DNA from: a virus | IMG/VR virus record: IMGVR_UViG_3300032311_001364 | Span: 1-25,223 of that record | Direction: 5' to 3' (one strand) | DNA: 25,223 bases | Shown here: positions 8,527 to 25,198 of the stretch, piece after piece | Position numbering within the stretch: the stretch's first letter is position 1 | Layout of the letters: the number at the start of each line of letters is the position of its first letter | Translations under genes and position numbers: made by a program | Notes under the pieces: model-generated | Databases searched by the model: none | The model's input: only the letters and a program-made list of their open reading frames with translations | What the model was told of the DNA's origin: nothing

Positions 8527-11480
8527 TGGCTACATATATTGATTTAGATAGAACTTGCACTCAAAGTTGTATTTTAGCTTATGATGCTGCTGCTAAATTA
8601 ACTGACCTTTCATATGCAAAACCACCAGAATATTATGAATGGGAACGTGGTGCTGACTATACAATCAGTGGACATTTTGGTGGAAGTGTTCAAGTAGTAA
8701 CCAATTTTGTTACTACAGGTTCTTTACCAGTACCAGCTCCATTTGGTGTACCTTGGTATTGGTATATAAATGCAGATGTAACAGTAGATAATGGTTTTGG
8801 AACAGTAGTTACACAAACAATAGTTTTAAAATCTGGTTCTATTCCTGGTGTTGTTGGATATGTTCCTTTTGTTGAAGAATCACAAGCAATTTCTGGCACT
8901 GTAAATTTTTCTTATCCAACTAGAATATTTTATGACATTGATGAAAATGTTCCAGGAACTGAATATTTATGGCCACCAAGAACAAAATATACTCAATATG
9001 AACGTACTAGAGTTGGACAAACAGCAACAGTATCTATTACATTAAATGGTCAAACTGTTACTGCAAGTGGGGCTATTTCATCAGCTGTAGGTTCAGATTA
9101 TAACTTTGTTTTTGATGGAGAAGCTTTTGCAAATGGAGCTTCAGCATCAGTAGAAAACTTTATACTTTCAGCTCCACAAATTAATAGTATTTTAATTCCA
9201 AGTTACAGTTATATTTATGCTAGAGATGCAAGTCAATTTGTAAGCCAAGACACTACTATTAATTTACATACTACTGGTGCTGATGATGCTTTTGGTGCAG
9301 CTCTTAATACATATGCTATTTTGAATAGTGATGTAAAACTTGAAAGAAAAATGAATTTTAAAGGCTGGGTAAATGCTTGGTCTTATTCTATGGATACTGA
9401 TAAAGATATCAATATTTATGGTTTAACAGCTTTTCCAGAAGTTTTTAGTTTTACTGGTGATTATGATGTTTCTTATGTAGGTACTCAAAGACAATTTAAT
9501 GCAACTTTAGGATTAGGTCCAAGTGTAATTGGTGATAGTACTAATACAGACACTATGCCAGTGTCAAATATCTACTGTGAATTAAGTGATACTGCACCTA
9601 TATTTCAAGAGTTAGGAAGTCCTAGAATGCCATTTAGAGGATGGTCATTTAATGGTGCTTCTATCTATAATCAGAAAGAAATTACTTTGCCAGGAAGTGG
9701 AACATCAAGAACTTATGCATATCCAAACTGTCAAAACTTTTCAGCATATAGATTCTTAGATATTAATGCAAACTCTAATACTGCATCACCAATTTTATCT
9801 ACATTAACAGTAAGATATGGTCAACTATCTAATACTGATATATTACAAACTGATTTAACTTTTCAACCTGCTGGTAACACTGCTAGAGTTGATTTATGTT
9901 TTGCTGACCAGTTGCATAATACTTATCCATTTCCTGATATTTCATATCAGGACAATCCATATCCTCGTGCAAATCCAATTGACCCAGTATTTGAATCATT
10001 ATATAAAAAAGTCAATGATGATATGTATGGAATCTCACTTGTTGGCTCATTAAATTTAAGCGGAAATATCAACGTTTCAAGCATTAAACTAATAAGAGAT
10101 GACAATACAGCTAAATGTAATTTTATAGCTCCAAATTACGATTATTCAGAAGGATTAGGTTATCAACAACTACCTGAAGTATATACTGGTGGATTAATAC
10201 CTGACACAAATATATCAGTTACTTATTATGGTAGAAGATTTTGGCAACATAACACTCAAGGTAAAGAAGAAGAAGAGTTTGATGTTATGTTTATCAATGA
10301 CCAATCTTCAATTACTATCTCTTCAACTGGTATTTCTAATCTTTGTGACAGAATAGAAGCAACTAATTATCTTGGAGATAAAATACATCCAGGGTGGACA
10401 GCTAACCCATCAACTCCATTTAATAATGCAAGTTATTTACAAAATGGATATCTAAACTCAACAACTGGGTATTCAACCTGGTTAATGGGTGGTGGAATGG
10501 AATATATTGCTGGTAATCAAAGATTTGGTTTTGATAGAGATTTATCTGAAGAAACTAATGATTATGATATTAAAGCTCAAACTATATTTGATGAATTAAA
10601 TCATGACTTTATTCCTGACTATCCTGACCCATTTGGTTTAGAAGCACCAGGTGAAACAGATTTAAAATTATATTCTTTTCAATGTTGGAGAGGTCAATTC
10701 CACGGGTTAGTACAAAAACAAGTAGCTGGACAATTAGTAGAAACTAAACTTGCCTCTAGTGGTGCTTTTGGTCCTAATGCCAACACTGATTCAATTGGAA
10801 CTTATTTTACTGGTTTTCCTGGAAATAGACAGCTTGGATGGAAAGTATCTACTGGTGGAACTGAAACTACTTCTTTGCCAATTATAGGCTCAAATACTAG
10901 AAGAGTTAGTTTTTATTATGTACTTGTTGGTCAATACATTATATCAGCATCTATGTCTGGTTTTTATCAACATATGATTGGAACTTTAACTGGTAATAAT
11001 GTTCAATTAATATCAACAACAACACCAGATTTTTCTACATTTGATTATTTAAATACAGATATTGATGATGCAGCTGAACCTGCAATAAGTTGGATATCAC
11101 CTACTAATCTAAATGAACTAGCTATAGTAGTTAGGAATATAAATAATAACGATATTGAATATTACACTTTAAATGATTTTGTAAATGGAGTAGCTTCAAT
11201 GCCAACTGTATTAGGTACTGGAACAACACCAGCAATAGCAATAAATGGAAACGGTAGTCAACTAATTGTTTTTAGAACATCATCTTCAAACATTCAAAGA
11301 GTGATTATTGATAGTGCTGGAAATATCACCACTGCAGCTTCAAATGTAGTAACTGGTAATGTTGCTGATAGTGGTTTAGGATGTTACTGGTTAGATGATG
11401 TACCTTACCTTGTCTATGACCATACAACCAATGGAATCACTGTAGTTAAAAGTGAAAATTACGGACAAACTTTCTCATAA
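8526..11480 (+). CDS. Large tail fibre / tail tip-associated protein, unassigned fold
   Basis: A 984-residue, strand-rich, Asn/Thr/Ser/Tyr-rich protein, last gene of the tail block and coupled to the hub gene by TAATG. I do not recognise a named family along most of its length. The N-terminus has a CTQSC motif (residues 11-15) that might bind metal or form a disulphide. The last 150 residues look like a beta-propeller (repeats of the type LAIVVRN, QLIVFRT, PYLVYDH), and the protein ends with SENYGQTFS, which resembles a sialidase/BNR Asp-box (SxDxGxTW). Position and composition suggest an adhesion or receptor-binding role. A glycan-binding role is inference. Confidence 0.55.
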   Translation: MATYIDLDRTCTQSCILAYDAAAKLTDLSYAKPPEYYEWERGADYTISGHFGGSVQVVTNFVTTGSLPVPAPFGVPWYWYINADVTVDNGFGTVVTQTIVLKSGSIPGVVGYVPFVEESQAISGTVNFSYPTRIFYDIDENVPGTEYLWPPRTKYTQYERTRVGQTATVSITLNGQTVTASGAISSAVGSDYNFVFDGEAFANGASASVENFILSAPQINSILIPSYSYIYARDASQFVSQDTTINLHTTGADDAFGAALNTYAILNSDVKLERKMNFKGWVNAWSYSMDTDKDINIYGLTAFPEVFSFTGDYDVSYVGTQRQFNATLGLGPSVIGDSTNTDTMPVSNIYCELSDTAPIFQELGSPRMPFRGWSFNGASIYNQKEITLPGSGTSRTYAYPNCQNFSAYRFLDINANSNTASPILSTLTVRYGQLSNTDILQTDLTFQPAGNTARVDLCFADQLHNTYPFPDISYQDNPYPRANPIDPVFESLYKKVNDDMYGISLVGSLNLSGNINVSSIKLIRDDNTAKCNFIAPNYDYSEGLGYQQLPEVYTGGLIPDTNISVTYYGRRFWQHNTQGKEEEEFDVMFINDQSSITISSTGISNLCDRIEATNYLGDKIHPGWTANPSTPFNNASYLQNGYLNSTTGYSTWLMGGGMEYIAGNQRFGFDRDLSEETNDYDIKAQTIFDELNHDFIPDYPDPFGLEAPGETDLKLYSFQCWRGQFHGLVQKQVAGQLVETKLASSGAFGPNANTDSIGTYFTGFPGNRQLGWKVSTGGTETTSLPIIGSNTRRVSFYYVLVGQYIISASMSGFYQHMIGTLTGNNVQLISTTTPDFSTFDYLNTDIDDAAEPAISWISPTNLNELAIVVRNINNNDIEYYTLNDFVNGVASMPTVLGTGTTPAIAINGNGSQLIVFRTSSSNIQRVIIDSAGNITTAASNVVTGNVADSGLGCYWLDDVPYLVYDHTTNGITVVKSENYGQTFS

Positions 11481-14712: not shown

Positions 14713-14742
14713 TTGCAAAAATATATTTGTATGTGTTATAAT
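14713..14742 (+). promoter_or_regulatory. Promoter of the regulatory/terminase operon, apparently leaderless
   Basis: TTGCAA (14713-14718), 18-base spacer, extended -10 TGTTATAAT (TATAAT at 14737-14742). The ATG at 14749 begins exactly seven bases after the -10, where transcription should start, so the mRNA would have no leader and no ribosome binding site. Confidence 0.8.
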
Positions 14743-14748
14743 ATTGGT

Positions 14749-14976
14749 ATGGACGAAGAAGAAGATTTTATCATTTCTGAAGAAGGTGTTATTCCCTACG
14801 TCAGAATCTATATCACTGTTGGAAAAGCTAATCACGATATGCTTGAAATACATGAAATTATCGATGCCTTAACACAAGATAACAAATCACCTAGTGAAAA
14901 CATTAAAGATATTATTGACAAGGGAATGGTTAATATTTACGCTTGCACATTTAACGAGACAGTAAAAGTATTATGA
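14749..14976 (+). CDS. Small acidic protein, first gene of regulatory operon, leaderless
   Basis: A 75-residue acidic protein (N-terminus MDEEEDF) of unknown family, with a strand-rich first half (VIPYVRIYITVG) and a helix around LEIHEIIDALTQD. The ATG at 14749 coincides with the expected transcription start of the promoter at 14713-14742; the frame extends upstream only over the promoter. The gene ends in an ATGA overlap with the XRE gene, so the two are co-translated. A regulatory role is suggested only by this coupling. Confidence 0.7.
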   Translation: MDEEEDFIISEEGVIPYVRIYITVGKANHDMLEIHEIIDALTQDNKSPSENIKDIIDKGMVNIYACTFNETVKVL

Positions 14977-15185
14977 AGAGAAAAGATTTACTTATCACAG
15001 AATTGACACAGATGGAAATTGCAGAAAGGGTAGGTGTCGCTCAACCTTTAATAAGTAGATGGTTCTCAGGTTCTTGTATGCCTCGTCCTTCTACTATTAA
15101 AAGATTAGCAACAGCATTGGAAGTGAGCGAAAAGGAATTATTAGTCTATTTGTATGAAAAACATCAAAACCTGGCAAGATTATAA
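14973..15185 (+). CDS. XRE-family (Cro/CI-type) helix-turn-helix regulator
   Basis: A 70-residue protein that is almost entirely one HTH_3 domain: LTQMEIAERVGVAQPLISRW (residues 11-30) contains helices 2 and 3 of the HTH, followed by PRPSTIKRLATALEVSEKEL, the usual helices 4-5. It has no dimerisation or cleavage domain, so it is Cro-like in size. It overlaps the 75-residue gene by ATGA and the sigma-like gene by 32 bases, linking its synthesis to both. It may act on the divergent promoters at 14678-14742; the operator is not known, but TATAACGTATA there is a candidate. Confidence 0.85.
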   Translation: MKRKDLLITELTQMEIAERVGVAQPLISRWFSGSCMPRPSTIKRLATALEVSEKELLVYLYEKHQNLARL

Positions 15186-15927
15186 ATACTCTAGGAAATT
15201 AAATCCTGGATATCCTAATCTTGCTGAGGATAAGTTTTTGCATAATCAACTACAAACAAGACATAGAGAAAAAGCTCTTGATGAAATAATCACCATCAAT
15301 ATGTCCCAAGTACACAAAATATGCAAAACTTATCATTGGTGTAATCTTGACTATGAAGACCTTATCCAATATGCAATAGAAGGAATCATAGCAGCAGCAG
15401 ATAACTACAAACCTGAAAGTGGTAATAAGTTTTCAACATTAGCTTATCATTATATTTTAGGAAGAGTTAGAAGAGCAATCGAACAATATAATCACACTAT
15501 TAAAATCCCAGCTCATATCAATTTAGCAAAATTAAGAATAAACCACCTTGACCTTGAAAAAGAAATTACCGATGAAGAGTTATTACCACTAGTCACTGAA
15601 AAATATTCCTTGTATTCTTTACGCCAAGCAATAATAGCAAAAGGCATTAAAATACAAGAGTTTGATGCAACCTACGATGTTGATGTTGAGTTTGTAGAAA
15701 ACCAAACTAATGAAGCTAACTATGCTATTAATCAAATACTCTCCACACTTAGACCTATCGATATCAAATGCATAGAAATGTACTTTGGTCTTAATAACAA
15801 TCGAACACATTTTTACAAAGAGATAGATAAAGAGCTTAATGTTGATAGCGAAGGCATAATTAAACGAGCATTGATTAAACTAGGAAATATTAGTGGAATT
15901 GAGTCGTTTTTGGATTACTTAAAATGA
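15154..15927 (+). CDS. RNA polymerase sigma-70-like factor
   Basis: A 257-residue protein with the layout of a small sigma factor. Region 2 is visible at about residues 66-110: DYEDLIQYAIEGIIAAADNY, then KFSTLAYHYILGRVRRAI, matching the DLxQeG...fxTyA...IR.AI pattern of sigma-70 region 2. A short segment with IPAHINL (about 117-123) resembles the start of region 3. Region 4-like sequence lies near residues 196-250 (LSTLRPIDIKCIEMYFGL, then a helix pair). It would direct host polymerase to phage promoters, probably late ones. The start overlaps the XRE gene; no strong ribosome binding site is seen, so translation is probably coupled. It ends ATGA with the small terminase. Region 4 is divergent, so specificity is likely unusual. 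Confidence 0.78.
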   Translation: MKNIKTWQDYKYSRKLNPGYPNLAEDKFLHNQLQTRHREKALDEIITINMSQVHKICKTYHWCNLDYEDLIQYAIEGIIAAADNYKPESGNKFSTLAYHYILGRVRRAIEQYNHTIKIPAHINLAKLRINHLDLEKEITDEELLPLVTEKYSLYSLRQAIIAKGIKIQEFDATYDVDVEFVENQTNEANYAINQILSTLRPIDIKCIEMYFGLNNNRTHFYKEIDKELNVDSEGIIKRALIKLGNISGIESFLDYLK

Positions 15928-16346
15928 GTTTAACTGAAGAAAAGAAACCAGAAGTTATAGCTTTACTATTACAAGGTATGACTATTAATGAAATCCATAG
16001 ACAAACTGGTGTTGCAAAATCAGCTATATGGAGAATTAAAGATAGTATCATTGATGGCAAATATTCTGGTGCAATATTAGACCTGAGAGATAACTTATCA
16101 GAATATATTGCTCTTTCACTTAAAAAACATTTAGATGCAATGAACGCAATAGCAGAGGTGGCAGTTGAAAAAGATTACATCAGAAGTAATACCGCACGAG
16201 ACGTTGCAAGCCTTCACGAGAGACTTGAATCTTGGTCACTTTCAATTCTCCAAGCCTCAAGTAACATCAACCAAAAACAACTTACCCCAAGAGACGAAAC
16301 TATCGATGCAGAAATTATCGATGAGGAAGAAAAACCAATTTCATAA
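15924..16346 (+). CDS. terS: Small terminase subunit (TerS)
   Basis: A 140-residue protein immediately before the large terminase. Residues 5-40 form an HTH (VIALLLQGMTINEIHRQTGV, then AKSAIWRIKDSI) for DNA recognition; residues 50-115 are helical and probably oligomerise; the C-terminus is acidic (ETIDAEIIDEEEKP), as expected for the segment that contacts the portal or TerL. It recognises the packaging site and regulates TerL. The start overlaps the sigma gene by ATGA, so the packaging genes are expressed with the sigma factor. The assignment rests on position, size and HTH, since TerS sequences are poorly conserved. Confidence 0.78.
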   Translation: MSLTEEKKPEVIALLLQGMTINEIHRQTGVAKSAIWRIKDSIIDGKYSGAILDLRDNLSEYIALSLKKHLDAMNAIAEVAVEKDYIRSNTARDVASLHERLESWSLSILQASSNINQKQLTPRDETIDAEIIDEEEKPIS

Positions 16347-17637
16347 ATATTTGACAGAAACATCTCCAGACAATTGGAATGTTAATGCAAAACATTTAAA
16401 CTTAATCTGCGAATATTTACAAAAAGTTGCTGATGGTGAAATTAAAAGATTAGCTATCTCGTTGCCTCCAAGGTCAGGAAAGAGTGAAACCTGCTTACGC
16501 TTTGCCTCTTTTTTCCTAGAAAACAATGCAAATTCCAACGTTTTAGTATGTGGTTATAGTCAAAGTATAGCAAGAAGATTCTCACGCAAATCTAGACAAA
16601 TATGCCTTGAAAGAACAGGATTAAATAATAGCCACCAAAGTATAGATGAATGGTCAATACCTAATGGCTCTACTTATTTTGTTGGTTCAGTTAACAATCC
16701 ACGAACCTCAATCGGATTCAACCTAATTCTGGCAGATGATTTGATTCGTAACCGTGAAGAAGCTAATTCATCTGTAATGAAAGAAAAGATTCGTGACTTT
16801 TACCGAGAGGATTTATATTCACGTTTAGAACCTTCAGGGGCAATGGTTTTAATTAATACTAGATGGTCAAATGATGATGTGATAGCTTTCGCAACAGAGC
16901 TAGACCCATCATTTGTAGTTTTAAATATTCCTGCAATTTGTGACGACCCAGAAAACGATTTACTAGGACGTGAGTTAAATGAATCTATATGGCCTGAGAG
17001 ATATTCAACTCAAGACTATTTAGATATTAAATCAATTATGGGAACGATGGGTTTTAGTGCTTTATATATGGGCAGACCTATTCCTAAAGAAGGGGCAATG
17101 TTTAATGTTAATTCTATCAAAATTGTTGACGATATTCCAAAAATGGTTAGAACTGTTAGGTCATATGATATTGCAAGTTCTAGTGGAAAAAATGACTATT
17201 CTGTAGGTGTTTTAATGGGAATAGATATCAATAACTGTTATTACTTGTTAGATTTATGGCGTGAACAGCTTGGAACAAAAGACCGAGACGACAAGATTTT
17301 AAGAACTGCAGAGCTTGATGGTAAGACAGTTAAGATTACTTTACCAAATGACCCTGGAAGTGCTGGAAAGAGTTTAACATTTTACTGGACTAAGATGCTT
17401 GCAGGATATATAATAGAATTTGTAAGACCTACTAAAAGCAAAGAAGTCAGAGCAGAACCATTATCAGTGCAAATTAATAATGGAAATGTATTTATGAAAA
17501 GGGCAAATTGGAATAAAGATTTGCTAGATGAATTTGAAACATTTCCATTTAATTCTCATGACGATATTGTGGATGCTTGTGCAGATGCTTTCAATGATTT
17601 AACAACTAAAGCTATCAGGAAATTTAGAGCAATATAA
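16321..17637 (+). CDS. terL: Large terminase subunit (TerL), ATPase and nuclease
   Basis: A 438-residue packaging motor. Walker A is LPPRSGKSE at residues 48-56; Walker B is LILADD at 135-140 (the second acidic residue is in the usual catalytic position); the motif ANSSVMKEKIRDFYRED follows it. The RNase H-like nuclease domain has Asp283 in SYDIASSSGKNDYSVG and the C-terminal acidic pair in SHDDIVDACADAF (Asp414/415/418). It pumps DNA into proheads and cuts the concatemer. The start is uncertain: ATG 16321 and ATG 16306 are both possible within the end of the TerS gene, and neither has a strong binding site. It overlaps the HNH gene by TAATG. Confidence 0.92.
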   Translation: MRKKNQFHKYLTETSPDNWNVNAKHLNLICEYLQKVADGEIKRLAISLPPRSGKSETCLRFASFFLENNANSNVLVCGYSQSIARRFSRKSRQICLERTGLNNSHQSIDEWSIPNGSTYFVGSVNNPRTSIGFNLILADDLIRNREEANSSVMKEKIRDFYREDLYSRLEPSGAMVLINTRWSNDDVIAFATELDPSFVVLNIPAICDDPENDLLGRELNESIWPERYSTQDYLDIKSIMGTMGFSALYMGRPIPKEGAMFNVNSIKIVDDIPKMVRTVRSYDIASSSGKNDYSVGVLMGIDINNCYYLLDLWREQLGTKDRDDKILRTAELDGKTVKITLPNDPGSAGKSLTFYWTKMLAGYIIEFVRPTKSKEVRAEPLSVQINNGNVFMKRANWNKDLLDEFETFPFNSHDDIVDACADAFNDLTTKAIRKFRAI

Positions 17638-18104
17638 TGGCAAAGAGATTATATAACGTAGACCCAATAGAACGTTTCAACCAAAAATATACTGTTGATG
17701 AAAATACAGGATGCTGGAACTGGAATTGTAAGTTATCATTTTATGGTTATGGTGTTTTAAAAGTTAATAAAAAAACTATTAAAGCTCATAGATTTTCTTA
17801 TGAGTATTTTATTGGACCACTATTAGATGATAAAATTATTTGCCATACTTGTTCAAATAGAAAATGTGTTAATCCAAACCATTTGAGACAGGACACACAT
17901 AAATCAAATTCAATTGATATGGCTATTGATGGAAAATGTAAAGACCAAATTTTATCAGTTGAAGAAGTAATAGAAATAAAAAAGTCATTAAAATGTTTCT
18001 ATCGTGGACAAGTTAAGGATTTAGCACATTTTTATAAAGTCAGTCCAAAAACAATATCTGCTATAAAAACTGGATATTCTTGGTCTCATATTCTAATACC
18101 GTAA
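17637..18104 (+). CDS. HNH homing-type endonuclease with C-terminal HTH
   Basis: A 155-residue protein. The HNH core spans residues 45-95: KAHRFSYEYFIGPL, then ICHTCSNRKCVNPNHLRQDT, with the Cys pairs and the CVNPxHL sequence of the HNH_3 family of phage homing endonucleases. The C-terminal 50 residues form an HTH (VKDLAHFYKVSPKTISAIKT) for target binding. Such genes are freestanding mobile elements that cut alleles lacking them. It is inserted between the terminase and portal genes, joined to TerL by TAATG, and the portal has its own promoter directly after, so the insertion need not disturb head gene expression. Some HNH proteins next to TerL assist packaging; both roles are possible. Confidence 0.85.
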   Translation: MAKRLYNVDPIERFNQKYTVDENTGCWNWNCKLSFYGYGVLKVNKKTIKAHRFSYEYFIGPLLDDKIICHTCSNRKCVNPNHLRQDTHKSNSIDMAIDGKCKDQILSVEEVIEIKKSLKCFYRGQVKDLAHFYKVSPKTISAIKTGYSWSHILIP

Positions 18105-18117
18105 AAATATAATAGAT
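18089..18117 (+). promoter_or_regulatory. Late-type promoter element before the portal gene
   Basis: CGTAAAAATATAATAGAT at 18100-18117 with TATAAT at 18108-18113; TATTCT at 18089-18094 sits upstream. No TTGACA-like -35 at 16-18 bases. The same element occurs before the protease (21867) and connector (24658) genes, each time about 25-30 bases before an AGGAT ribosome binding site. Confidence 0.65.
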
Positions 18118-18139
18118 TAACATCAAGGATTTAAATAAA

Positions 18140-19792
18140 ATGGGCTTCTTCGATTTCTTACGACCATCAGCTAAAAACCAACCAATAGCAAATATAAGCC
18201 AGAACCTTCCACTGCCAACTGTAATGCGTGGACAAAACTATTTATCAGGTATTGGCCTTCAGGATTTATTTGCTAACCTTTCTCGAAGATTACCAAACAC
18301 ATCTAAAGACTGGCAAAACATCTGTGGCGACTTGATGCTTAACTCCATCGTGGCGATAAGTATGGATTATTATATCAGAGGTTTTAGTCAAGCCCTTCCA
18401 ATGGTTTATAGACTTGTTGAAGGTAGCGATTCTGAATATGAAAAATATCCAGAACATCCTATGATTGCCCTTATTTCCAATCCTCAATATCAATTAGCAC
18501 CAACACGTTTCTGGAGCAATTGTATTATTGATTACAAGATTTATGGAAATGTTTATATCCGAAAGATTAGAAAATCAAAAGGCGGTCCAGTAATAGGATT
18601 GCAGTTTTTACCATCACAACAATGTCAGCCTGTTGGAGATAATATAAATCCAATCACACACTATAACTATGTTGTTGACGGTACTCCATATGCAGTTTCA
18701 CCAGAAGATATTATTCACATAGCTTACGGCAGAGACCCAATTGATTATAGACTTGGTCGTTCTCCGCTTATGTCAGTGTTAAGAGAAATAGCAACAGATA
18801 ACGTAGCTTCATCTTGTGCTTTTGGTCTTATGAACAACTCTGGCCTTCCCTCTATTATGGTAAGTCCTGATGCTACTGACCAAATTGTAGACATTAGTGA
18901 TGACGACCTTAGAACAATGAAGAGACGTTTAGAGGATTCATTTACCGGAGATAATGCAGGTTCTATTGCTGTTATGTCTGGTCCATTTAAAGTAGAGAAA
19001 GTATCATTCAGTCCTAATGAAATGGCTCTTGATTCTATTAGACATACACCTGAAGAAAGAATATCCTCTGCAATGGGTTTAAACTGTATGGTCCTAAACT
19101 TGTCTGCAGGCTTAGAAAACTCAACCTATTCTAATATGTTTGAGGCAGAAGCAGCAGCGTGGAATCAAGGTATCATTCCACTCTTAACTGTATTTGCAGA
19201 ATCAATTACTCAAAACTTATTAGGTGAATTCCCTGAAACACAAGAGGGTGATTTCTATAACTGGGACCTGAGCAAAATTAAAGCACTGCAAGATGATAGT
19301 TTACAAGAGGCTAAAAAGGCTGAAACATTATATAAGGCTGGAATTATCGATAGGTCAGAAGCTAAGAGAATTGTTGGATATGATTACAACGCTACTGATG
19401 AAGAGATTTACCATCCTCAAGGCACACCAATATCAACTCAAAACCCAAACTCTGATGTTGCTGGAAAAAGTATTAAAGCATCTTACAAACCAAATGCATC
19501 TATGGTCACTAACGCAAAGAGAGCATTAAAGTGGAAAGATGAAGGCAGAGACGGCGGAACAATCATAGGTTTAACAAGGGCAAATCAAATTGTTAACGAA
19601 GAAAACTTATCAGAAGATACAGTTGTCAGAATGTATAGTTTCTTCAGTAGACACGAAGTTGATAAAAAAGCAGAAGGATTTAACTCTGGAGAACAAGGAT
19701 ATCCAAGTAACGGTAGAGTAGCCTGGGACCTTTGGGGTGGTGATGCTGGATTTACTTGGTCAAAAAATATAGTGGACAAATTGCAGGATTAA
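18140..19792 (+). CDS. Portal protein with a fused C-terminal accessory domain
   Basis: A 550-residue protein in the portal slot after terminase. Residues 1-440 resemble HK97-type portals: YRLVEGSDSE, HPMIALISNPQ, a segment IYGNVYIRKIR, then PEDIIHIAYGRDPIDYRLGRSPLM (portal core) and TPEERISSAMGL. Residues 455-550 are an extra domain with AKRALKWKDEGRDGGTIIGL, FFSRHEVDKKAEGF and GRVAWDLWGGDAGFTWSK. I recall that module recurring in other phages, alone or fused to head proteins, with no firmly known function. The portal forms the dodecameric DNA entry ring. Start supported by AAGGAT ten bases upstream. It is separated from the capsid genes by about 2 kb of orphan genes, which is unusual. Confidence 0.85.
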   Translation: MGFFDFLRPSAKNQPIANISQNLPLPTVMRGQNYLSGIGLQDLFANLSRRLPNTSKDWQNICGDLMLNSIVAISMDYYIRGFSQALPMVYRLVEGSDSEYEKYPEHPMIALISNPQYQLAPTRFWSNCIIDYKIYGNVYIRKIRKSKGGPVIGLQFLPSQQCQPVGDNINPITHYNYVVDGTPYAVSPEDIIHIAYGRDPIDYRLGRSPLMSVLREIATDNVASSCAFGLMNNSGLPSIMVSPDATDQIVDISDDDLRTMKRRLEDSFTGDNAGSIAVMSGPFKVEKVSFSPNEMALDSIRHTPEERISSAMGLNCMVLNLSAGLENSTYSNMFEAEAAAWNQGIIPLLTVFAESITQNLLGEFPETQEGDFYNWDLSKIKALQDDSLQEAKKAETLYKAGIIDRSEAKRIVGYDYNATDEEIYHPQGTPISTQNPNSDVAGKSIKASYKPNASMVTNAKRALKWKDEGRDGGTIIGLTRANQIVNEENLSEDTVVRMYSFFSRHEVDKKAEGFNSGEQGYPSNGRVAWDLWGGDAGFTWSKNIVDKLQD

Positions 19793-19800
19793 CGTATAAT
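19772..19800 (+). promoter_or_regulatory. Candidate promoter at the end of the portal gene
   Basis: TGGACA (19773-19778), 16-base spacer, TATAAT (19795-19800), preceded by TTAACG. No plus-strand gene follows before the terminator at 19853-19884, so it may drive a short RNA of about 80 bases. Confidence 0.4.
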
Positions 19801-19852
19801 AATAGTGTTCTTAATTGTTTACTGGTTCATAAATTTCCTATTCCTAAACGAA

Positions 19853-19886
19853 AATAACCCCTGGAGTAAAATCCAGGGGTTATTTG
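19853..19886. terminator. Strong bidirectional terminator after the portal
   Basis: Stem AATAACCCCTGGA (19853-19865) with TCCAGGGGTTATT (19872-19884), loop GTAAAA. It closes the portal transcript and the converging minus-strand gene at 19892-20155. Confidence 0.85.
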
Positions 19887-19891
19887 TTTAT

Positions 19892-20155
19892 TTAGAACTT
19901 ATAATCAAATATTTCTTTAGAAGATTTTGTCTGCCACTTTTTTGCAAGGTCTATCATTTCAAGAATATTGTTATCAGAAATATTGCTAACTTCTTTAATA
20001 GCATTCCAATTTACAGGGCTAGAAGAAAAAACATCTCTTTTACCAACCCTTTTATAAGTTGTCTTCGGCATAAAAGAATCAATTACATTCTCTTCGATTC
20101 CATTGTTCTTTAAACAAGTGACAATCGGTACTAACATCATCATCGAAACATTCAT
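19892..20155 (-). CDS. Orphan protein of unknown function, minus strand
   Basis: An 87-residue protein starting MNVSMMMLVPIVTCLKNNGI; the first helix is hydrophobic, then a mixed region with FMPKTTYKRVGKRDVF and a C-terminal amphipathic helix (ILEMIDLAKKWQTKSS). Not recognised. The ATG at 20155 has GGAG six bases upstream; the TTG at 20167 does not. It has its own promoter (20184-20212, minus) and ends at the bidirectional terminator after the portal. Opposed orientation and its own signals mark it as an accessory (moron-like) gene. Confidence 0.65.
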   Translation of the reverse strand: MNVSMMMLVPIVTCLKNNGIEENVIDSFMPKTTYKRVGKRDVFSSSPVNWNAIKEVSNISDNNILEMIDLAKKWQTKSSKEIFDYKF

Positions 20156-20183
20156 TTTTAACTCCAACCTTTCCTACACCAAT

Positions 20184-20212
20184 ATAATAGCATACGTTAT
20201 ATAGAATTGCAA
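20184..20212 (-). promoter_or_regulatory. Promoter for the 19892-20155 gene
   Basis: Minus strand: TTGCAA (20207-20212), 17-base spacer, TATTAT (20184-20189). The spacer contains TATAACGTATG, shared with other promoters here. Confidence 0.7.
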
Positions 20213-20213
20213 G

Positions 20214-20244
20214 AAAAAACCCCTATATTTCAAGGGGGTTTTTT
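20214..20244. terminator. Terminator between two minus-strand orphan genes
   Basis: AAAAACCCC (to 20223) pairs with GGGGTTTTT (20235-20243) around a loop of about 11 bases, with T-runs on both strands. It ends the 20246-20440 transcript before the next promoter. Confidence 0.75.
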
Positions 20245-20245
20245 A

Positions 20246-20440
20246 TCACTTACTTTCTAAATAGTCTTGCACTGCTTTAAGAACTTCAGCATCGTTTTTA
20301 CATTTCAGTGCAATTCTTTTAATTGCATTCAGCTGTATTTTTTCACTTGTATTCTCAAGCATAGCCAATTCATTTGACCAATTTCCAGGACAAGGATACT
20401 TAGATAACTGAAACAACAGTGCAAACATTTTACTTACCAT
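20246..20440 (-). CDS. Small orphan protein, minus strand
   Basis: A 64-residue protein, MVSKMFALLFQLSKYPCPGN at the start and helical after it, ending VLKAVQDYLESK. Not recognised; it could be a small helical regulator or inhibitor, but nothing in the sequence proves it. ATG 20440 is preferred over 20446 because GAGG lies eight bases from the former and only two from the latter. It has a good promoter (20478-20506, minus) and a terminator at 20214-20244, forming a one-gene transcription unit. Confidence 0.6.
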   Translation of the reverse strand: MVSKMFALLFQLSKYPCPGNWSNELAMLENTSEKIQLNAIKRIALKCKNDAEVLKAVQDYLESK

Positions 20441-20477
20441 AATCATTTCCTCTTAAACAAAACTTACCAACAGAAGT

Positions 20478-20506
20478 ATCATATCAAACGTTATAATGAT
20501 TGTCAA
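20478..20506 (-). promoter_or_regulatory. Promoter for the 20246-20440 gene
   Basis: Minus strand: perfect TTGACA (20501-20506), 17-base spacer, TATGAT (20478-20483). The spacer contains TATAACGTTTGA, matching the motif in the neighbouring promoters. Confidence 0.8.
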
Positions 20507-20583
20507 GAAAATAGATGGGTTTTTTTCAAGACAGATTCCGAATAAAACAGTGCGCCATATTTATTTCTTAAATAACCCTAACG

Positions 20584-20617
20584 AAAAAAAGTCACTACCA
20601 CATCTAGTGGCTTTTTT
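20584..20617. terminator. Bidirectional terminator isolating the next promoter
   Basis: AAAAAAAGTCACTA (20584-20597) pairs with TAGTGGCTTTTTT (from 20605), one G-U pair, loop CCACATC. It lies just before the promoter at 20623, shielding it from read-through. Confidence 0.8.
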
Positions 20618-20622
20618 GTTGT

Positions 20623-20650
20623 TTGACTATATAACGATAGAGTGTATAAT
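20623..20650 (+). promoter_or_regulatory. Promoter of a small-gene operon, apparently leaderless
   Basis: TTGACT (20623-20628), 16-base spacer containing TATAACGATAGA, TATAAT (20645-20650). ATG 20657 begins seven bases after the -10, the same geometry as at 14737-14749. The stretch TATAATATTGnTATG is shared by both. Confidence 0.8.
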
Positions 20651-20656
20651 ATTGTT

Positions 20657-20950
20657 ATGACACACAAGGACATTATTACAATCACAGCATTTAAAGAGAT
20701 GGGTTTTAAGAATATAGATTTAAAATATATCTCTGACATTAAACTCAACAGGATTACTTGTGAGTTTGAAATGAAAGTTGGCAAAGGTACATATACGATA
20801 CCATTTGAAGCTTTTTGCAATCCATCAAATAAAATAACTCTTTCAAAACATTTCCTTTTTGCAGAAGTAGTGAAAATGTTAGAGGAATTTAATGCACTAG
20901 ACTATAAATCAAAAGTATCTTATTTAGAAAAGTTAGGTGCAAAACAATGA
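20657..20950 (+). CDS. Small protein of unknown function, leaderless first gene of operon
   Basis: A 97-residue protein with ITITAFKEMGFKNIDLKYIS at the N-terminus, a strand-rich middle (CEFEMKVGKGTYTIPF) and a helical C-terminus. Not recognised. The frame begins upstream at a GTG within the -10 box (20642), which cannot be transcribed from this promoter, so ATG 20657 is the start. It overlaps the next gene by ATGA. Confidence 0.7.
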   Translation: MTHKDIITITAFKEMGFKNIDLKYISDIKLNRITCEFEMKVGKGTYTIPFEAFCNPSNKITLSKHFLFAEVVKMLEEFNALDYKSKVSYLEKLGAKQ

Positions 20951-21231
20951 GTGAGTTTTTTGTAGCATTGGACGAAGAGTATGTAGGATGTTGGAACTGT
21001 AATTCTAACAAAAAAACCTACGTTATTTATGATTACTATGACAATGGTTGCGGTTATTGGTGTAAAGATTGTTGGTATTCTAAATTAACAGGAATTCAAA
21101 TGAAATTCCTCGGTGTAATAATGAAGTATGACAATGGCTTCTTCCGACAACAAAACACTAAAATCGGCAATATTATGCAGAGTTATGATAGATACACATT
21201 ACCACCGAGTATTGATAAAGAAGGATTTTAA
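20947..21231 (+). CDS. Small zinc-ribbon-like protein
   Basis: A 94-residue protein with two Cys pairs: CWNC (Cys15, Cys18) and CKDC (Cys39, Cys42), plus Cys35, spaced as in a zinc ribbon. The stretch between them is aromatic (TYVIYDYYDNGCGYWC). The C-terminal half has no known motif. It overlaps the previous gene by ATGA. Zinc binding is inferred from spacing; function unknown. Confidence 0.7.
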   Translation: MSEFFVALDEEYVGCWNCNSNKKTYVIYDYYDNGCGYWCKDCWYSKLTGIQMKFLGVIMKYDNGFFRQQNTKIGNIMQSYDRYTLPPSIDKEGF

Positions 21232-21235
21232 AGTG

Positions 21236-21301
21236 ATGAAACTAGGCGATTATATTTTAAATCTTCTTATCAAACAAATGACAGAAAAGAATGATAGATA
21301 A
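21236..21301 (+). CDS. Very short possible peptide (21 residues)
   Basis: An ATG five bases after the previous stop reads 21 residues (MKLGDYILNLLIKQMTEKND...) and ends overlapping the next ATG. It fits the packed spacing of the operon, but its length makes it doubtful; it might only carry ribosomes to the next start. Confidence 0.3.
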   Translation: MKLGDYILNLLIKQMTEKNDR

Positions 21302-21446
21302 ATTATTACTATTATTCTTTGCAGTATTTAATTTGTATTTACTCTGGCGTGTTGATAAAATAGAGAAAGAACGACCAAGCTACGAAGATATTAAAAAAAT
21401 ATTTGAAATTCTGGTTGATAAGGTAACTAATAATGAGCAAGATTAA
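21291..21446 (+). CDS. Small single-pass membrane protein
   Basis: A 51-residue protein with one membrane segment at about residues 4-19 (KLLLLFFAVFNLYLLW), then Arg20 and a highly charged tail (VDKIEKERPSYEDIKK). It overlaps the next gene by 14 bases. It has the plan of a small type-II-like or N-out anchor. A holin or spanin-like role is possible because no holin is seen next to the endolysin, but a single short helix and its place in an early-looking operon make this uncertain. Confidence 0.55.
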   Translation: MIDKLLLLFFAVFNLYLLWRVDKIEKERPSYEDIKKIFEILVDKVTNNEQD

Positions 21447-21726
21447 TTTAGACTTTGATTTCTTATTTAAACTACTTTGTGAAAATGAAAAACTACTTAA
21501 AGAATTACGAGAAGAAAAAGCAGCTCATACAGAAACAAAGAACAGAGTTATTTTTGCTACTCATATTCTTAATGGCAATAGAGATGAAGCCACCAAAGAA
21601 TTTACTAATGAGTATGATAAACAAATCGAATCATTAACAAAAGAAAATGGAAATCTAAAAAGAGAGATTGCTGATTATAAAAAGTCATTAAATGCTTGGC
21701 ACACTAAGTTTAATAAAATGGTATAA
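21433..21726 (+). CDS. Coiled-coil protein of unknown function
   Basis: A 97-residue, highly charged, helical protein. Residues 8-35 and 60-90 show heptad-like patterns (LLCENEKLLKELREEKAAH; ESLTKENGNLKREIADYKKS), so it probably forms a coiled coil. It overlaps the membrane protein gene, so the two may work together. Not recognised. Last gene of the 20657 operon, ended by the terminator at 21773-21800. Confidence 0.6.
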   Translation: MSKINLDFDFLFKLLCENEKLLKELREEKAAHTETKNRVIFATHILNGNRDEATKEFTNEYDKQIESLTKENGNLKREIADYKKSLNAWHTKFNKMV

Positions 21727-21772
21727 TCTAATCAGTTCTCAAAAACTGCTCGACAAAACCTGTGGGGGAGGG

Positions 21773-21806
21773 AAAACCAGCCGTAAAAAAGCTGGTTTTT
21801 CTTTGT
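21773..21806 (+). terminator. Terminator after the small-gene operon
   Basis: AAAACCAGC (21773-21781) pairs with GCTGGTTTT (21791-21799), loop CGTAAAAAA, followed by a T-rich tract. A G-rich run (GTGGGGGAGGG, 21762-21772) directly precedes it, unusual in this AT-rich genome. Confidence 0.8.
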
Positions 21807-21854
21807 TTATAGGTTCAAAAAACAACTATAACCATTTCAGTGTAATATTTTTAA

Positions 21855-21883
21855 TATCTTATATATCGTAAAATAATATTAGA
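21855..21883 (+). promoter_or_regulatory. Late-type promoter element before the protease gene
   Basis: TATCTT at 21855-21860 and CGTAAAATAATATTAGA at 21867-21883, the same spacing (12 bases) as before the connector gene. No TTGACA-like -35. The AGGAT binding site follows at 21896. Confidence 0.65.
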
Positions 21884-21907
21884 ATTGGATATTAGAGGAT
21901 TAATTGT

Positions 21908-23251
21908 ATGTTTAAAGCAAAACCTGAAGATTTAAAAATGGATGACTATGTATCTTGGGGTACTTCTGCGTCTGATGCAAGAGGTAAGATTGTAGATATT
22001 CGTACAGATGGCGAAGTACAGTCATCAATCTCAGACTATACTTTAACTGGAACACCTGAAGACCCTGTGTATCTCATTAAATTAGTGCAAAAGGATCAAG
22101 ACGGTAAAGATGTTTTAACAGAGCAAACAGTAGTCCATAGAGCTGATGCATTAAGAGTTATTCCAGACCCTATCAAATCAATGAAAACTTTTTACTCATC
22201 AGAAATTAAAGCCAAAGAAAATGGTGTTGTTGAGGGTTATTTAGTACGCTTTGGCAATTCTAATGACACTGACCTTGAAAAGGATTATTTTACTAAGTCC
22301 ACTGATTTTGGATTTGAATTTGATAATGGTGAAAGTCATAAGCTTGGTCTTTATTACAACCACGGAATGGACAAGACTTTAGGCACAAAAAAGATTGGCT
22401 ATGGCACTGTTAAGATGGATGATAAAGGTCTTTGGTATTCAGCTCAATTAGATATGGCTGATGAATATTCTAAGATGATTTATGACCTTGCTAAAAAGGG
22501 TCAATTAGGTTTTAGTTCTGGTTCCGCTTCTCATATGGTTGAAAGAGAAATGATGGGCAAGTCTTATGAAATTAAAAGATGGGCACTTGCAGAAGCATCA
22601 TTAACACCTACACCTGCTGAATATCGTAATAAAGCTGAAGCAAAGAGATATTTTGATAGAGAAGGCAGATATGTTGACTATACCGAAAAGGAAAAAAGAG
22701 AAATGTCAAAGAAATCTGAAGACGAATACGAATCAGAAGATGAAAATGTAGACGATATGGTGGAAGGATTAATGATGATTAATGCTACACCTGAGGAAAT
22801 TGCATCTACTATTTACGATGGTGTTGAAGAAGATTTAGTTGCTGATTCAATTCACTGCCTATATAAACGAATGATAGAGGGTGTTTTAGGTGTGATTGAG
22901 TCTGGTGGTGATATTGCTACTATTAATGCAGTAGTTCAAGGATTCCACGATAGAGTTATGATGGTTGCAGATAAGTATGTTGCAATGCCAGATGCTCAAA
23001 TGTCTATGGAAATGGAAGCAATGAAGGGTATAGTTGCTAAATCACCTGAAAATATTAAACAATGTGAAAGAGCCTTGCGTGATGCTATGGACCTTTCTCG
23101 CAGCCAAGCTAAAGGTTTGGCAAAATTGGTTTGGTCTCATTTGCGTGATGTAGATGATATTCAAGAACCAGAAATTAAAAAAACAATTGATATTGATAAA
23201 GAAGCTGAAAGAAATGCATTACTTACAGCAGCTTTGAAATATTTAATTTAA
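21908..23251 (+). CDS. Prohead protease with N-terminal Tudor-like domain and C-terminal scaffold-like region
   Basis: A 447-residue protein just before the capsid gene. Residues 1-90 resemble the Tudor-like domain (HVA_TUDOR/DUF2945 type) with DYVSWGTSASDARGKIV at 13-29 and VVHRADALRVI near 85. Residues 95-260 match the HK97-type prohead protease (U35/S78): VVEGYLVRFGN, His152 in YYNHGMD, and Ser203/204 in LGFSSGSASH, then LAEASLTPTPAEYRN, the conserved end of the domain. The rest is helical and acidic (residues 265-290 rich in Glu and Asp), probably the scaffold removed during maturation. It processes the capsid precursor. Start at ATG 21908 after GAGGAT; own promoter at 21855-21883. Confidence 0.83.
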   Translation: MFKAKPEDLKMDDYVSWGTSASDARGKIVDIRTDGEVQSSISDYTLTGTPEDPVYLIKLVQKDQDGKDVLTEQTVVHRADALRVIPDPIKSMKTFYSSEIKAKENGVVEGYLVRFGNSNDTDLEKDYFTKSTDFGFEFDNGESHKLGLYYNHGMDKTLGTKKIGYGTVKMDDKGLWYSAQLDMADEYSKMIYDLAKKGQLGFSSGSASHMVEREMMGKSYEIKRWALAEASLTPTPAEYRNKAEAKRYFDREGRYVDYTEKEKREMSKKSEDEYESEDENVDDMVEGLMMINATPEEIASTIYDGVEEDLVADSIHCLYKRMIEGVLGVIESGGDIATINAVVQGFHDRVMMVADKYVAMPDAQMSMEMEAMKGIVAKSPENIKQCERALRDAMDLSRSQAKGLAKLVWSHLRDVDDIQEPEIKKTIDIDKEAERNALLTAALKYLI

Positions 23252-23279
23252 GTCGAAGTACAAGACTAAGGTAAAAAAA

Positions 23280-24593
23280 ATGACACTTGAAGAAATCCAA
23301 GCCAAAATCAAAGACAATGCGATTAAGGCTACTGAAATTCTAGAGCTTGAAAATGCAGATACAGTTGCAGCTAAAGCTCTAATCGAAGAAAACAAAGCAT
23401 TGGAAGAAAAAGCAGAGATGATTAAAGCTCTTGCACAAGTTCCTACTGCTACTCCAGATAACGTAGAGGTTAAAAAAATGTCCGATATTATCATTCCTAG
23501 CTCTTCATCTTTTAAAAATGTTAAGGGCTTTTCACCAGATTCCCGTGCAGAAAAAGAAAAGATGGGTTATGCTTTTGGTCAGTTGGCTAAGATGGTTGGC
23601 CGTAATGACAAAAAGGCTCATCAGTGGTTAGTTGAAAATGGCTATTACACAAAGGGTCAAAACGAAACAACCGATGCAGACGGTGGATATTTAGTTCCAC
23701 AGATTCTTGCTCGTGAAGTTATTTTCTTGCGTGACCAATATGGTGTTATGAGACAGAATGCTCGTGTTATGGGTATGTCAAGCGATAACTTGAACGTTCC
23801 AAAGAACACTGCTTCAACAACTGCTTACTGGCCAGCTGAAAACACCAACATTACTCAATCACAAGTTACTTTTGCAAACGTTCAAATCCTTGCTAAGAAA
23901 CTTGCTATTCTTACACAGGTTTCTTCAGAATTACAAGAAGACTCTATTGTGGACGTTGGTGCTACATTGGCACAAGATATGGCATATGTAATGGCATACA
24001 ATGAAGACCTTGCAACCTTCTTAGGTGATGGTACTTCCACTTATGGTGGTATTACTGGTGTAGTTCCACAGATTGCTGGTGTTAACGGTGGTGCTAACGC
24101 AGGTTGGATTTACACTGGTGCTGACGTAACTGGAAACTGGAATGCAACTACTCTTGCAGACCTTCGTAAACTTACTGCAGCTATTCCTCAGTACGCAGAT
24201 AGACCAGGCGAATGTGCATTCTATATGAACCGTGCATTCTTCCAACAGGTTGTCTGCAATGACCTGGATGCGCTTTCTGGTAACGGCTTCTTTGACCTTA
24301 CTGCTGCTCCAGGACCTAACCCGACATTGTTTGGTTATCCTGTCATCTACACTCAGGTATTAAGCCAAGACCCAACACCTGCAGCTGATACTGCTCTTGC
24401 ACTCTTTGGTAATATGTCCACTGGTGCTATTATGGGTTCCAGACGTGACCTTAGAATCCAAGTATCTGACCAAGCTGGTTTCATTAGTGATTCCCTCTTC
24501 TTCAGAGCTACCGAGCGCTTTGGGTTCAAATATCACGATTTACCAACAGCATCTGTATGTGGTTCAATTGCGGTGCTTGTCGCCAACAACTAA
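23280..24593 (+). CDS. HK97-fold major capsid protein
   Basis: A 437-residue protein. Residues 1-70 form a charged coiled coil like the HK97 delta domain, which acts as internal scaffold and is cut off. The mature part starts near residue 90-110; motifs include TDADGGYLVPQILAREVIFL (residues 131-150, the E-loop/N-arm start), QILAKKLAILTQVSSELQED and the P-domain segment YNEDLATFLGDGTSTYGGI, all typical of the family. The C-terminus contains GSRRDLRIQVSDQ and FRATERFGFKYH. It forms the icosahedral shell. AGG is about 9 bases before the ATG. It is followed by a strong terminator, as is common for capsid genes. Confidence 0.93.
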   Translation: MTLEEIQAKIKDNAIKATEILELENADTVAAKALIEENKALEEKAEMIKALAQVPTATPDNVEVKKMSDIIIPSSSSFKNVKGFSPDSRAEKEKMGYAFGQLAKMVGRNDKKAHQWLVENGYYTKGQNETTDADGGYLVPQILAREVIFLRDQYGVMRQNARVMGMSSDNLNVPKNTASTTAYWPAENTNITQSQVTFANVQILAKKLAILTQVSSELQEDSIVDVGATLAQDMAYVMAYNEDLATFLGDGTSTYGGITGVVPQIAGVNGGANAGWIYTGADVTGNWNATTLADLRKLTAAIPQYADRPGECAFYMNRAFFQQVVCNDLDALSGNGFFDLTAAPGPNPTLFGYPVIYTQVLSQDPTPAADTALALFGNMSTGAIMGSRRDLRIQVSDQAGFISDSLFFRATERFGFKYHDLPTASVCGSIAVLVANN

Positions 24594-24613
24594 TAGTATC
24601 ATTACTATGGGAG

Positions 24614-24643
24614 AAAGACCAGAGAAATCTGGTCTTTTTTTTT
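24614..24643 (+). terminator. Strong terminator after the capsid gene
   Basis: A 10-bp stem, AAAGACCAGA (24614-24623) with TCTGGTCTTT (24628-24637), a GAAA tetraloop, and a T-run to 24643. It would let the capsid protein be made in excess of downstream proteins. Confidence 0.9.
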
Positions 24644-24645
24644 CT

Positions 24646-24674
24646 TATCTTTAATGTCGTAAAATATAATAGAT
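24646..24674 (+). promoter_or_regulatory. Late-type promoter element before the connector gene
   Basis: TATCTT (24646-24651) and CGTAAAATATAATAGAT (24658-24674), the best copy of the shared element; no TTGACA-like -35. It directly follows the capsid terminator and precedes an AGGAT binding site at 24683, so it restarts transcription for connector and tail genes. Confidence 0.7.
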
Positions 24675-24694: not shown

Positions 24695-25198
24695 ATGCCA
24701 TTGTCAAGATTACAAGCGATTAAAAAACTAAGTTGGATGGTACAAGCTGATGCATATCCTGAGCTTGATTCTAACGCACTTGGAGAATTAATTGATGAGC
24801 ATAAAAGATTTGGTTCTTGGACAGCTTCTCAAACTTATAGTGTCGGAGACCAAATTGTTCCTACAGTTCCTAATGGACGTGTTTATCAGTGTTATATTGC
24901 TGGCACTTCTGGTACTGTTGAGCCTAGTTTTCCTGAAATTAATTATGCTGTTGGACAAAACTTTCAAGATGGCGTAGTTCCAGCAGATGGTAATCCTTTA
25001 ACTTGGCGTGATAGTGGTTTCGTCCAACAAGAAATCTATGATGTTAGAGCTTCCGCCAGAGAAGGTTGGATGAGAAAAGCCTCTATTGCCGCTAATCTAT
25101 TAAATACAGATGACGGTGCAACAAAGGTAGACTTGAACAGATTAATCGAAAATTGCCATGCTCAAGCTGCTAAATTCAGGTCATTTGGAATACTTTAA
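24695..25198 (+). CDS. Head-tail connector (adaptor)-like protein with an inserted carbohydrate-binding-like domain
   Basis: A 167-residue protein in the slot of the gp6-type connector, after the capsid. The ends form a helical frame: LSRLQAIKKLSWMVQADAYP and ALGELIDEH at the N-terminus, and ARAREGW-like, NLLNTDDGATKVDLNRLIEN and HAQAAKFRSFG at the C-terminus. Between them, residues 40-108, is a strand-rich module: TASQTYSVGDQIVPTVPNGR, YQCYIAGTSGTVEPSFP and PLTWRD, which resembles small carbohydrate-binding-like domains (CBM5/12-type) in phage virion proteins. It would sit between portal and tail with the insertion exposed. Ends TAATG with the next gene. The fold assignments are by pattern. 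Confidence 0.65.
   Translation: MPLSRLQAIKKLSWMVQADAYPELDSNALGELIDEHKRFGSWTASQTYSVGDQIVPTVPNGRVYQCYIAGTSGTVEPSFPEINYAVGQNFQDGVVPADGNPLTWRDSGFVQQEIYDVRASAREGWMRKASIAANLLNTDDGATKVDLNRLIENCHAQAAKFRSFGIL

Follow-up and report, generated by a model that had tools for sequence, protein, structure and literature searches.

A candidate late promoter and the sigma factor that accompanies it in a lineage of small uncultured phages

Which factor reads the short element that is repeated ahead of the structural genes in IMG/VR virus record IMGVR_UViG_3300032311_001364? The whole stretch analysed (25,223 bases, 33% guanine plus cytosine (GC); henceforth the window) carries three copies of this element and encodes a phage sigma-70-family factor, and an earlier reading of its letters (henceforth the original prediction) had proposed that the one recognises the other. 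The reading favoured here is a two-step cascade, in which the main sigma factor of the host would serve the operon of the phage sigma gene and the phage sigma factor would serve the late elements; it is given a probability of roughly 0.7. With the sigma, portal, capsid and terminase proteins as queries, IMG/VR yielded about 60 related contigs, and motifs were counted on 41 non-redundant ones (511 kb in total). All features of the window named below lie on its + strand.

The three copies reported by the original prediction were recovered with the sequences and positions it had given, each with an AGGAT site beyond it (25–29 bases 3′ of the CG), and their placement ahead of the portal, the protease/capsid and the connector (here the first post-capsid gene) was borne out. 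Copy 2, ATATCGTAAAATAATATTAGA (21863..21883), precedes the protease/capsid unit and has the consensus form, and copy 3, ATGTCGTAAAATATAATAGAT (24654..24674), precedes the post-capsid gene; both were identified by pattern match and matrix score. Copy 1, ATACCGTAAAAATATAATAGA (18096..18116), precedes the portal gene, is diverged, and was identified by position and matrix rank. The string TATCTTN5TCGTAAAATA, said to be shared by the two best copies, occurs exactly only at 21855 and 24646, with nothing else in the window within two mismatches. With a weight matrix trained on more distant relatives only, the three sites took the top three places in the window, at 28.0, 18.0 and 5.6 bits. Since the best match in 100 shuffles of the window averaged 6.6 bits and reached at most 16.2, copies 2 and 3 exceed chance; copy 1 was accepted because its C lies at −40 from the portal ATG, the same place as in the strong portal copies of the relatives. 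The conserved unit itself had to be corrected, from TATCTT plus a TATAAT block to ATATCGTAAAATAAnnTTAGA: TATAAT is present in copies 1 and 3 only, where its register differs from that of the conserved −10-like TAAAAT, and the TATCTT-like box is kept in the protease copies but is weak in the others.

A check of the relatives, as suggested by the original prediction, placed the motif upstream of head genes at a rate far from random. An order-2 Markov model predicts 0.05 occurrences of the 12-mer TATCGTAAAATA, but 56 were counted, all of them on the gene-sense strand and none on the opposite one. Every one of the 56 lies less than 75 nt upstream of the start of a portal, protease, post-capsid or holin gene. 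Exact copies precede 6/15 portal, 26/27 protease, 22/29 post-capsid and 2/3 holin genes; with two mismatches allowed, these numbers become 10/15, 27/27, 29/29 and 2/3, respectively. Even at that tolerance no element was found upstream of 14 other gene families, including capsid, terL (terminase large subunit), sigma and tail genes. Using leave-out matrices, element sites were the top matches in eight of nine long relatives, G029 included (17–29 bits, next match below 9), and the ninth, G022, has a single site at 18 bits. In G023, the portal element is inverted together with the whole block of sigma, terS (terminase small subunit), terL and portal genes, which runs opposite to the capsid and tail genes (L083:1716-6088). 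Scanning the whole collection for TATCGTAAAATA-N-ATG gave no useful information because the pattern was too loose, and a search of the literature for the 12-mer itself turned up only an unrelated paper on pneumococcal serotyping.

The fourth copy, before a holin gene (phrog_2359, E 1.3e-15) beside the endolysin, was observed in some relatives (L083:1040-1365; L220:835-1165; L221:3707-4033), and no such holin was seen in the window. HNH genes lie directly 5′ of late elements in various relatives (between terL and portal, or between capsid and post-capsid gene), and in L233 (4250-4300; cf. L232:4740-4790 and window 17637-18116) the HNH gene ends exactly at the element.

At 21 sites with upstream DNA less than 62% identical, conservation is limited to ATATCGTAAAATAA, followed by a weaker TTAGA, and strong conservation spans only −4 to +16 around the CG. 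Conservation of the CGTAAAA columns stems partly from the criterion by which sites were collected, a bias from which the 56-copy count is free. The unit ATATCGTAAAATAAnnTTAGA is readable as an extended −10 (TATCG), a −10 (TAAAAT) and a start site, with transcription predicted to begin 7 nt past the −10, at the A of TTAGA or a base adjacent to it. In the portal copy of G022, CGTATAATAAATTAGA, TATAAT stands in register in place of TAAAAT, a change that would be expected of a −10. The lack of a −35 box, noticed before in the window, extends to the relatives, as none is conserved among the 21 diverged sites. Likewise, L232 and L233 are identical in element and leader from TAGACCG onward and are preceded by terL in one and by an HNH gene in the other; because they share nothing upstream of about TAGACCG, no fixed −35 is indicated. 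A terminator hairpin and T-tract end just 5′ of most post-capsid copies, so that a fresh transcription start is required there. In the window, this is an intrinsic terminator immediately 5′ of copy 3 (24609..24642, terminator scan). Taken together, a repeated element that behaves as a directional, gene-proximal late promoter is supported, and its identity as a late promoter is very probable.

The sigma-70-like gene claimed at 15154..15927 was confirmed by profile searches (Sigma70_r2, E 7.6e-10; phrog_351 RNA polymerase sigma factor, E 1.1e-29). Its product of 257 amino acids (aa) has an intact region 2, which passes the curated Sigma70_r2 cut-off, an intact region 3.0 motif and a degenerate region 4; the Sigma70_r4 cut-off was passed by only one of seven records searched (G023). 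The profile of the phage family matches housekeeping sigma factors from region 2 through region 4, and its best solved-structure matches are cyanobacterial and other SigA/RpoD proteins (cyanobacterial SigA best, E ~1e-27). In the predicted structure (mean predicted local distance difference test score 78.8, predicted template modelling score 0.44), the domains are fairly confident and their arrangement is not, and the fold matches sigma A chains (Foldseek). In contrast to SigA/RpoD, the recognition helix of region 4.2 is three residues shorter in the profile alignment and −10 recognition positions are replaced: aligned by eye, the positions that we take to be Q437 and T440 in E. coli sigma-70 numbering are an invariant G and R/K, and the presumed H455 is retained. 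Invariant columns are most frequent in regions 2.3–3.0 (12/41) and sparse in region 4 (4/70). This residue pattern, together with the sparse conservation of region 4, fits a factor that would read an altered −10 region and little or no −35. The Klebsiella sigma match inspected was discarded, as it is the host's own rpoD next to a prophage.

The sigma gene belongs to an operon that starts with a promoter of vegetative type, TTGCAA-N18-TATAAT (14713..14742; promoter scan, conservation in relatives), followed by a small acidic open reading frame (ORF) of 75 aa (14749..14976; no Pfam or PHROG match) and by a Cro/CI-type helix-turn-helix (HTH) protein of 70 aa (14973..15185; HTH_3, E 2.2e-9), the gene of which overlaps the sigma gene. 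In 18 contigs, i.e., all in which such a site was found, TATAAT lies 6–7 nt before the first ATG of the operon, so that the first gene appears to be leaderless; several of these promoters have a TTGACA/TTGACT-like −35, 17–18 nt upstream of TATAAT, and they are devoid of the CG extension of the late elements. The exact spacing TATAAT-N6-ATG is kept in 16 of the 18 (window 14713-14751; L075, L077, L086, L090, L221 and others), and in contigs without the acidic ORF the HTH gene occupies the leaderless start.

Co-occurrence of motif and sigma gene, the test named by the original prediction, was found in all 23 contigs that extend sufficiently beyond terS on its upstream side, some of which are nearly identical; each carries both the sigma and the HTH gene. 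The contrary outcome, i.e., a motif at random rates or in relatives lacking the sigma gene, was looked for as well: the rate was not random and no relative without sigma gene was found. Sigma identity among relatives ranges from 36 to 100%, yet even in the lowest case (L224, 36%) the core CGTAAAATAA is unchanged. The distant contig G030 (27% in terL) lacks the element, and its sigma genes are different ones.

That the genome carries promoters of two types is consistent with a two-step cascade. The main sigma factor of the host would read the TTGACA/TATAAT-type promoter ahead of the small operon, which would yield the acidic protein, the HTH protein, the phage sigma factor and terminase. The phage sigma factor, quite probably the reader of the late element, would then bind host core RNA polymerase and steer it to the compact promoter ATATCGTAAAATAAnnTTAGA, where an extended −10 (TATCG), a −10 (TAAAAT) and a start near TTAGA would suffice and a −35 would not be needed. 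Three such promoters would launch the portal, protease–capsid and post-capsid/tail units, and in some relatives a fourth would launch the holin; we infer the late timing, like the promoter role, the start position and the reader, from the DNA.

Several observations weigh against this cascade. The portal copy of the window is diverged and, taken alone, not significant; no element was found ahead of the portal in L012 or in L235/L236, where, as in L012, the portal gene begins about 30 nt after terL. About 18–22 nt upstream of the −10, a T-rich tract shows weak conservation and may represent a degenerate −35; in the post-capsid copies this tract is the tail of the terminator. All element-bearing relatives are of one phage lineage, and shared ancestry adds to the association, although the surrounding DNA has diverged. 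Finally, the sigma and HTH genes are always linked, so their co-occurrence with the element cannot say which of the two products reads it.

Because it is equally linked to the element, the HTH protein (14973-15185) provides the main rival: the host housekeeping holoenzyme would use the element as a late promoter activated by this protein bound to the TATCG part, and the sigma factor would do something else. That its gene overlaps the sigma gene and that its recognition-helix segment is conserved among relatives suit such a role. HTH_3 proteins usually bind palindromes as dimers, however, and the element is asymmetric, with AAATAAATTT as its best self-complementary stretch; moreover, the conserved sequence is continuous through the −10 and the start region, with no separate operator and no host −35, which makes this explanation unlikely. 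Lower still stands the view that the element is no promoter and acts instead as a signal in the 5′ leader RNA or as another DNA site, such as an HNH homing or recombination site. HNH genes, which are frequent immediately upstream and in several relatives end exactly at the element, would suit it, but the element also precedes protease and holin genes and is present in relatives without HNH gene at that place, its orientation tracks the downstream gene, and the terminator before most post-capsid copies calls for a new start; this view is therefore quite improbable. Compact contiguous promoters are also read by phage single-subunit RNA polymerases, and an unbroken stretch of about 20 bp, not divided into two boxes, would accord with such an enzyme, but neither seven records (in a search with blank controls) nor the ORFs of G029 gave a recognisable RNA polymerase, and the sigma gene is always present, so that this origin is very unlikely. 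Chance or inherited similarity without function, for which the AT-richness of the window and its weak first copy might speak, is contradicted by 56 copies against 0.05 expected, all at the same four places, and is practically negligible.

With the cascade as the preferred reading, the closest known principle is that of T4 gp55, a late sigma factor serving late promoters with an 8-bp TATA box at −10 and without conserved −35 (PMC2988020). The proposed likeness is a small phage sigma factor that diverts host polymerase to single-block −10 late promoters. The sigma-70 likeness of gp55 is, however, confined to domain 2, whereas the present factor aligns with SigA through region 4; gp55 works with gp33 and the sliding clamp, neither of which was recognised among G029 ORFs (not every small ORF was searched); and T4 has about 50 late sites, compared with three to four here, where the promoter has a CG-containing 5′ extension. 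SPO1, a Bacillus phage of the Herelleviridae, has the middle and late sigma factors gp28 and gp34, essential for ordered middle and late expression (PMC9429907); the likeness considered is that of phage sigma factors, with promoter sequences outside the comparison. In the siphovirus P-SS2, a group 3 sigma factor encoded beside the terminase genes has been proposed to serve a specific regulon (PMC2784084); there, the sigma gene follows terL in a genome of more than 100 kb, and the excerpt of that report consulted gives no cognate promoter element. Synechococcus phage S-CBS1 (NC_016164), a siphophage of about 30 kb, encodes a sigma factor of similar size with 28% identity to the present one, located on the opposite strand near the endolysin and away from the terminase. 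The original prediction of a previously undescribed late-gene switch thus holds for the sigma–element pair itself, which had no match in the cultured-phage records or literature searched, and not for the kind of switch, given the −10-only late promoters of T4. The principle is already known from T4 gp55 and SPO1, and what is new is this pair in a lineage of small uncultured phages. More tentative, and rather doubtful, is the proposal of a new class of sigma-70-type promoter: an uninterrupted element of about 20 bp, in which TATCG runs directly into TAAAAT and a TTAGA start, would be read by a phage sigma factor that has the full set of domains but a disabled −35 reader, and the co-encoded HTH and acidic proteins might act as its partners or timers.

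If true, this would be among the smallest complete sigma regulons, with one factor and three to four near-invariant sites in a genome of about 29–33 kb. It predicts the starts of late transcripts across a whole lineage of small uncultured phages and offers an orthogonal sigma–promoter pair amenable to in vitro tests with host core polymerase. The natural variants, with sigma factors of 36–100% identity and a nearly unchanged promoter, could serve the study of how promoters without −35 are read.

The window reads, from left to right, tail genes, endolysin, small early genes, acidic ORF, HTH, sigma, terS, terL and HNH, followed by portal, small genes, prohead protease, capsid and the first post-capsid gene. 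The small terminase subunit is a candidate (15924..16346; phrog_3218, E 6.6e-4, position ahead of terL), and the large subunit (16282..17637; phrog_38, E 3.3e-78) has its longest ORF opening at 16165. The HNH endonuclease in the terL–portal gap (17637..18104; HNH_3, E 4.7e-8) overlaps late element copy 1 with its 3′ end and is missing from that place in some relatives. The portal protein (18140..19792; Phage_portal, E 1.5e-42) is followed by an intrinsic terminator (19852..19885, terminator scan). A terminator-like hairpin, AAAACCAGC-N9-GCTGGTTTTT (21773..21800), lies 5′ of copy 2; it was read from the sequence, as its loop exceeds what the terminator scan accepts, and a CGTAAAA at 21782 within this loop was taken as chance. 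Downstream follow the prohead protease (S78; 21908..23251; Peptidase_S78, E 1.1e-11), the major capsid protein (23280..24593; Phage_capsid, E 1.1e-42) and the connector/decoration-like first post-capsid gene, which opens the tail operon (24695..25198; phrog_20658 head decoration, E 1.1e-9).

The window is a circularly permuted portion of a genome of about 29–33 kb, since its relative G003 (32,125 bases) has the same genes in rotated order, and G029 (28,737 bases) appears to be a complete circle, as its ends join in frame within its HNH gene. No integrase was found by a search with working positive controls. Cultured phages gave neither a member of the lineage nor a near relative at the DNA level, with portal and capsid matches at about 30% identity or lower. 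Capsid and portal profiles found no relative in 84,980 GTDB genomes, and the likeness of the sigma factor to cyanobacterial SigA is only a hint at the host.

Further observations were made in the relatives. In L076 (172-4509), a tail protein of 1445 aa has many degenerate repeats (GDVWNYDISGI, GTVWSTDVS), and the window starts inside its counterpart. The early region of G003 encodes an AAA_25/KaiC-like ATPase (L075:824-1747; Pfam E 3e-26), in place of which the window has other small genes. In the terL–portal interval of G018 (L082; G018 9358-11258, reversed coordinates), three tandem paralogous ORFs, all with FYTLCMKNPKENIGLR, flank a methyltransferase-like ORF.

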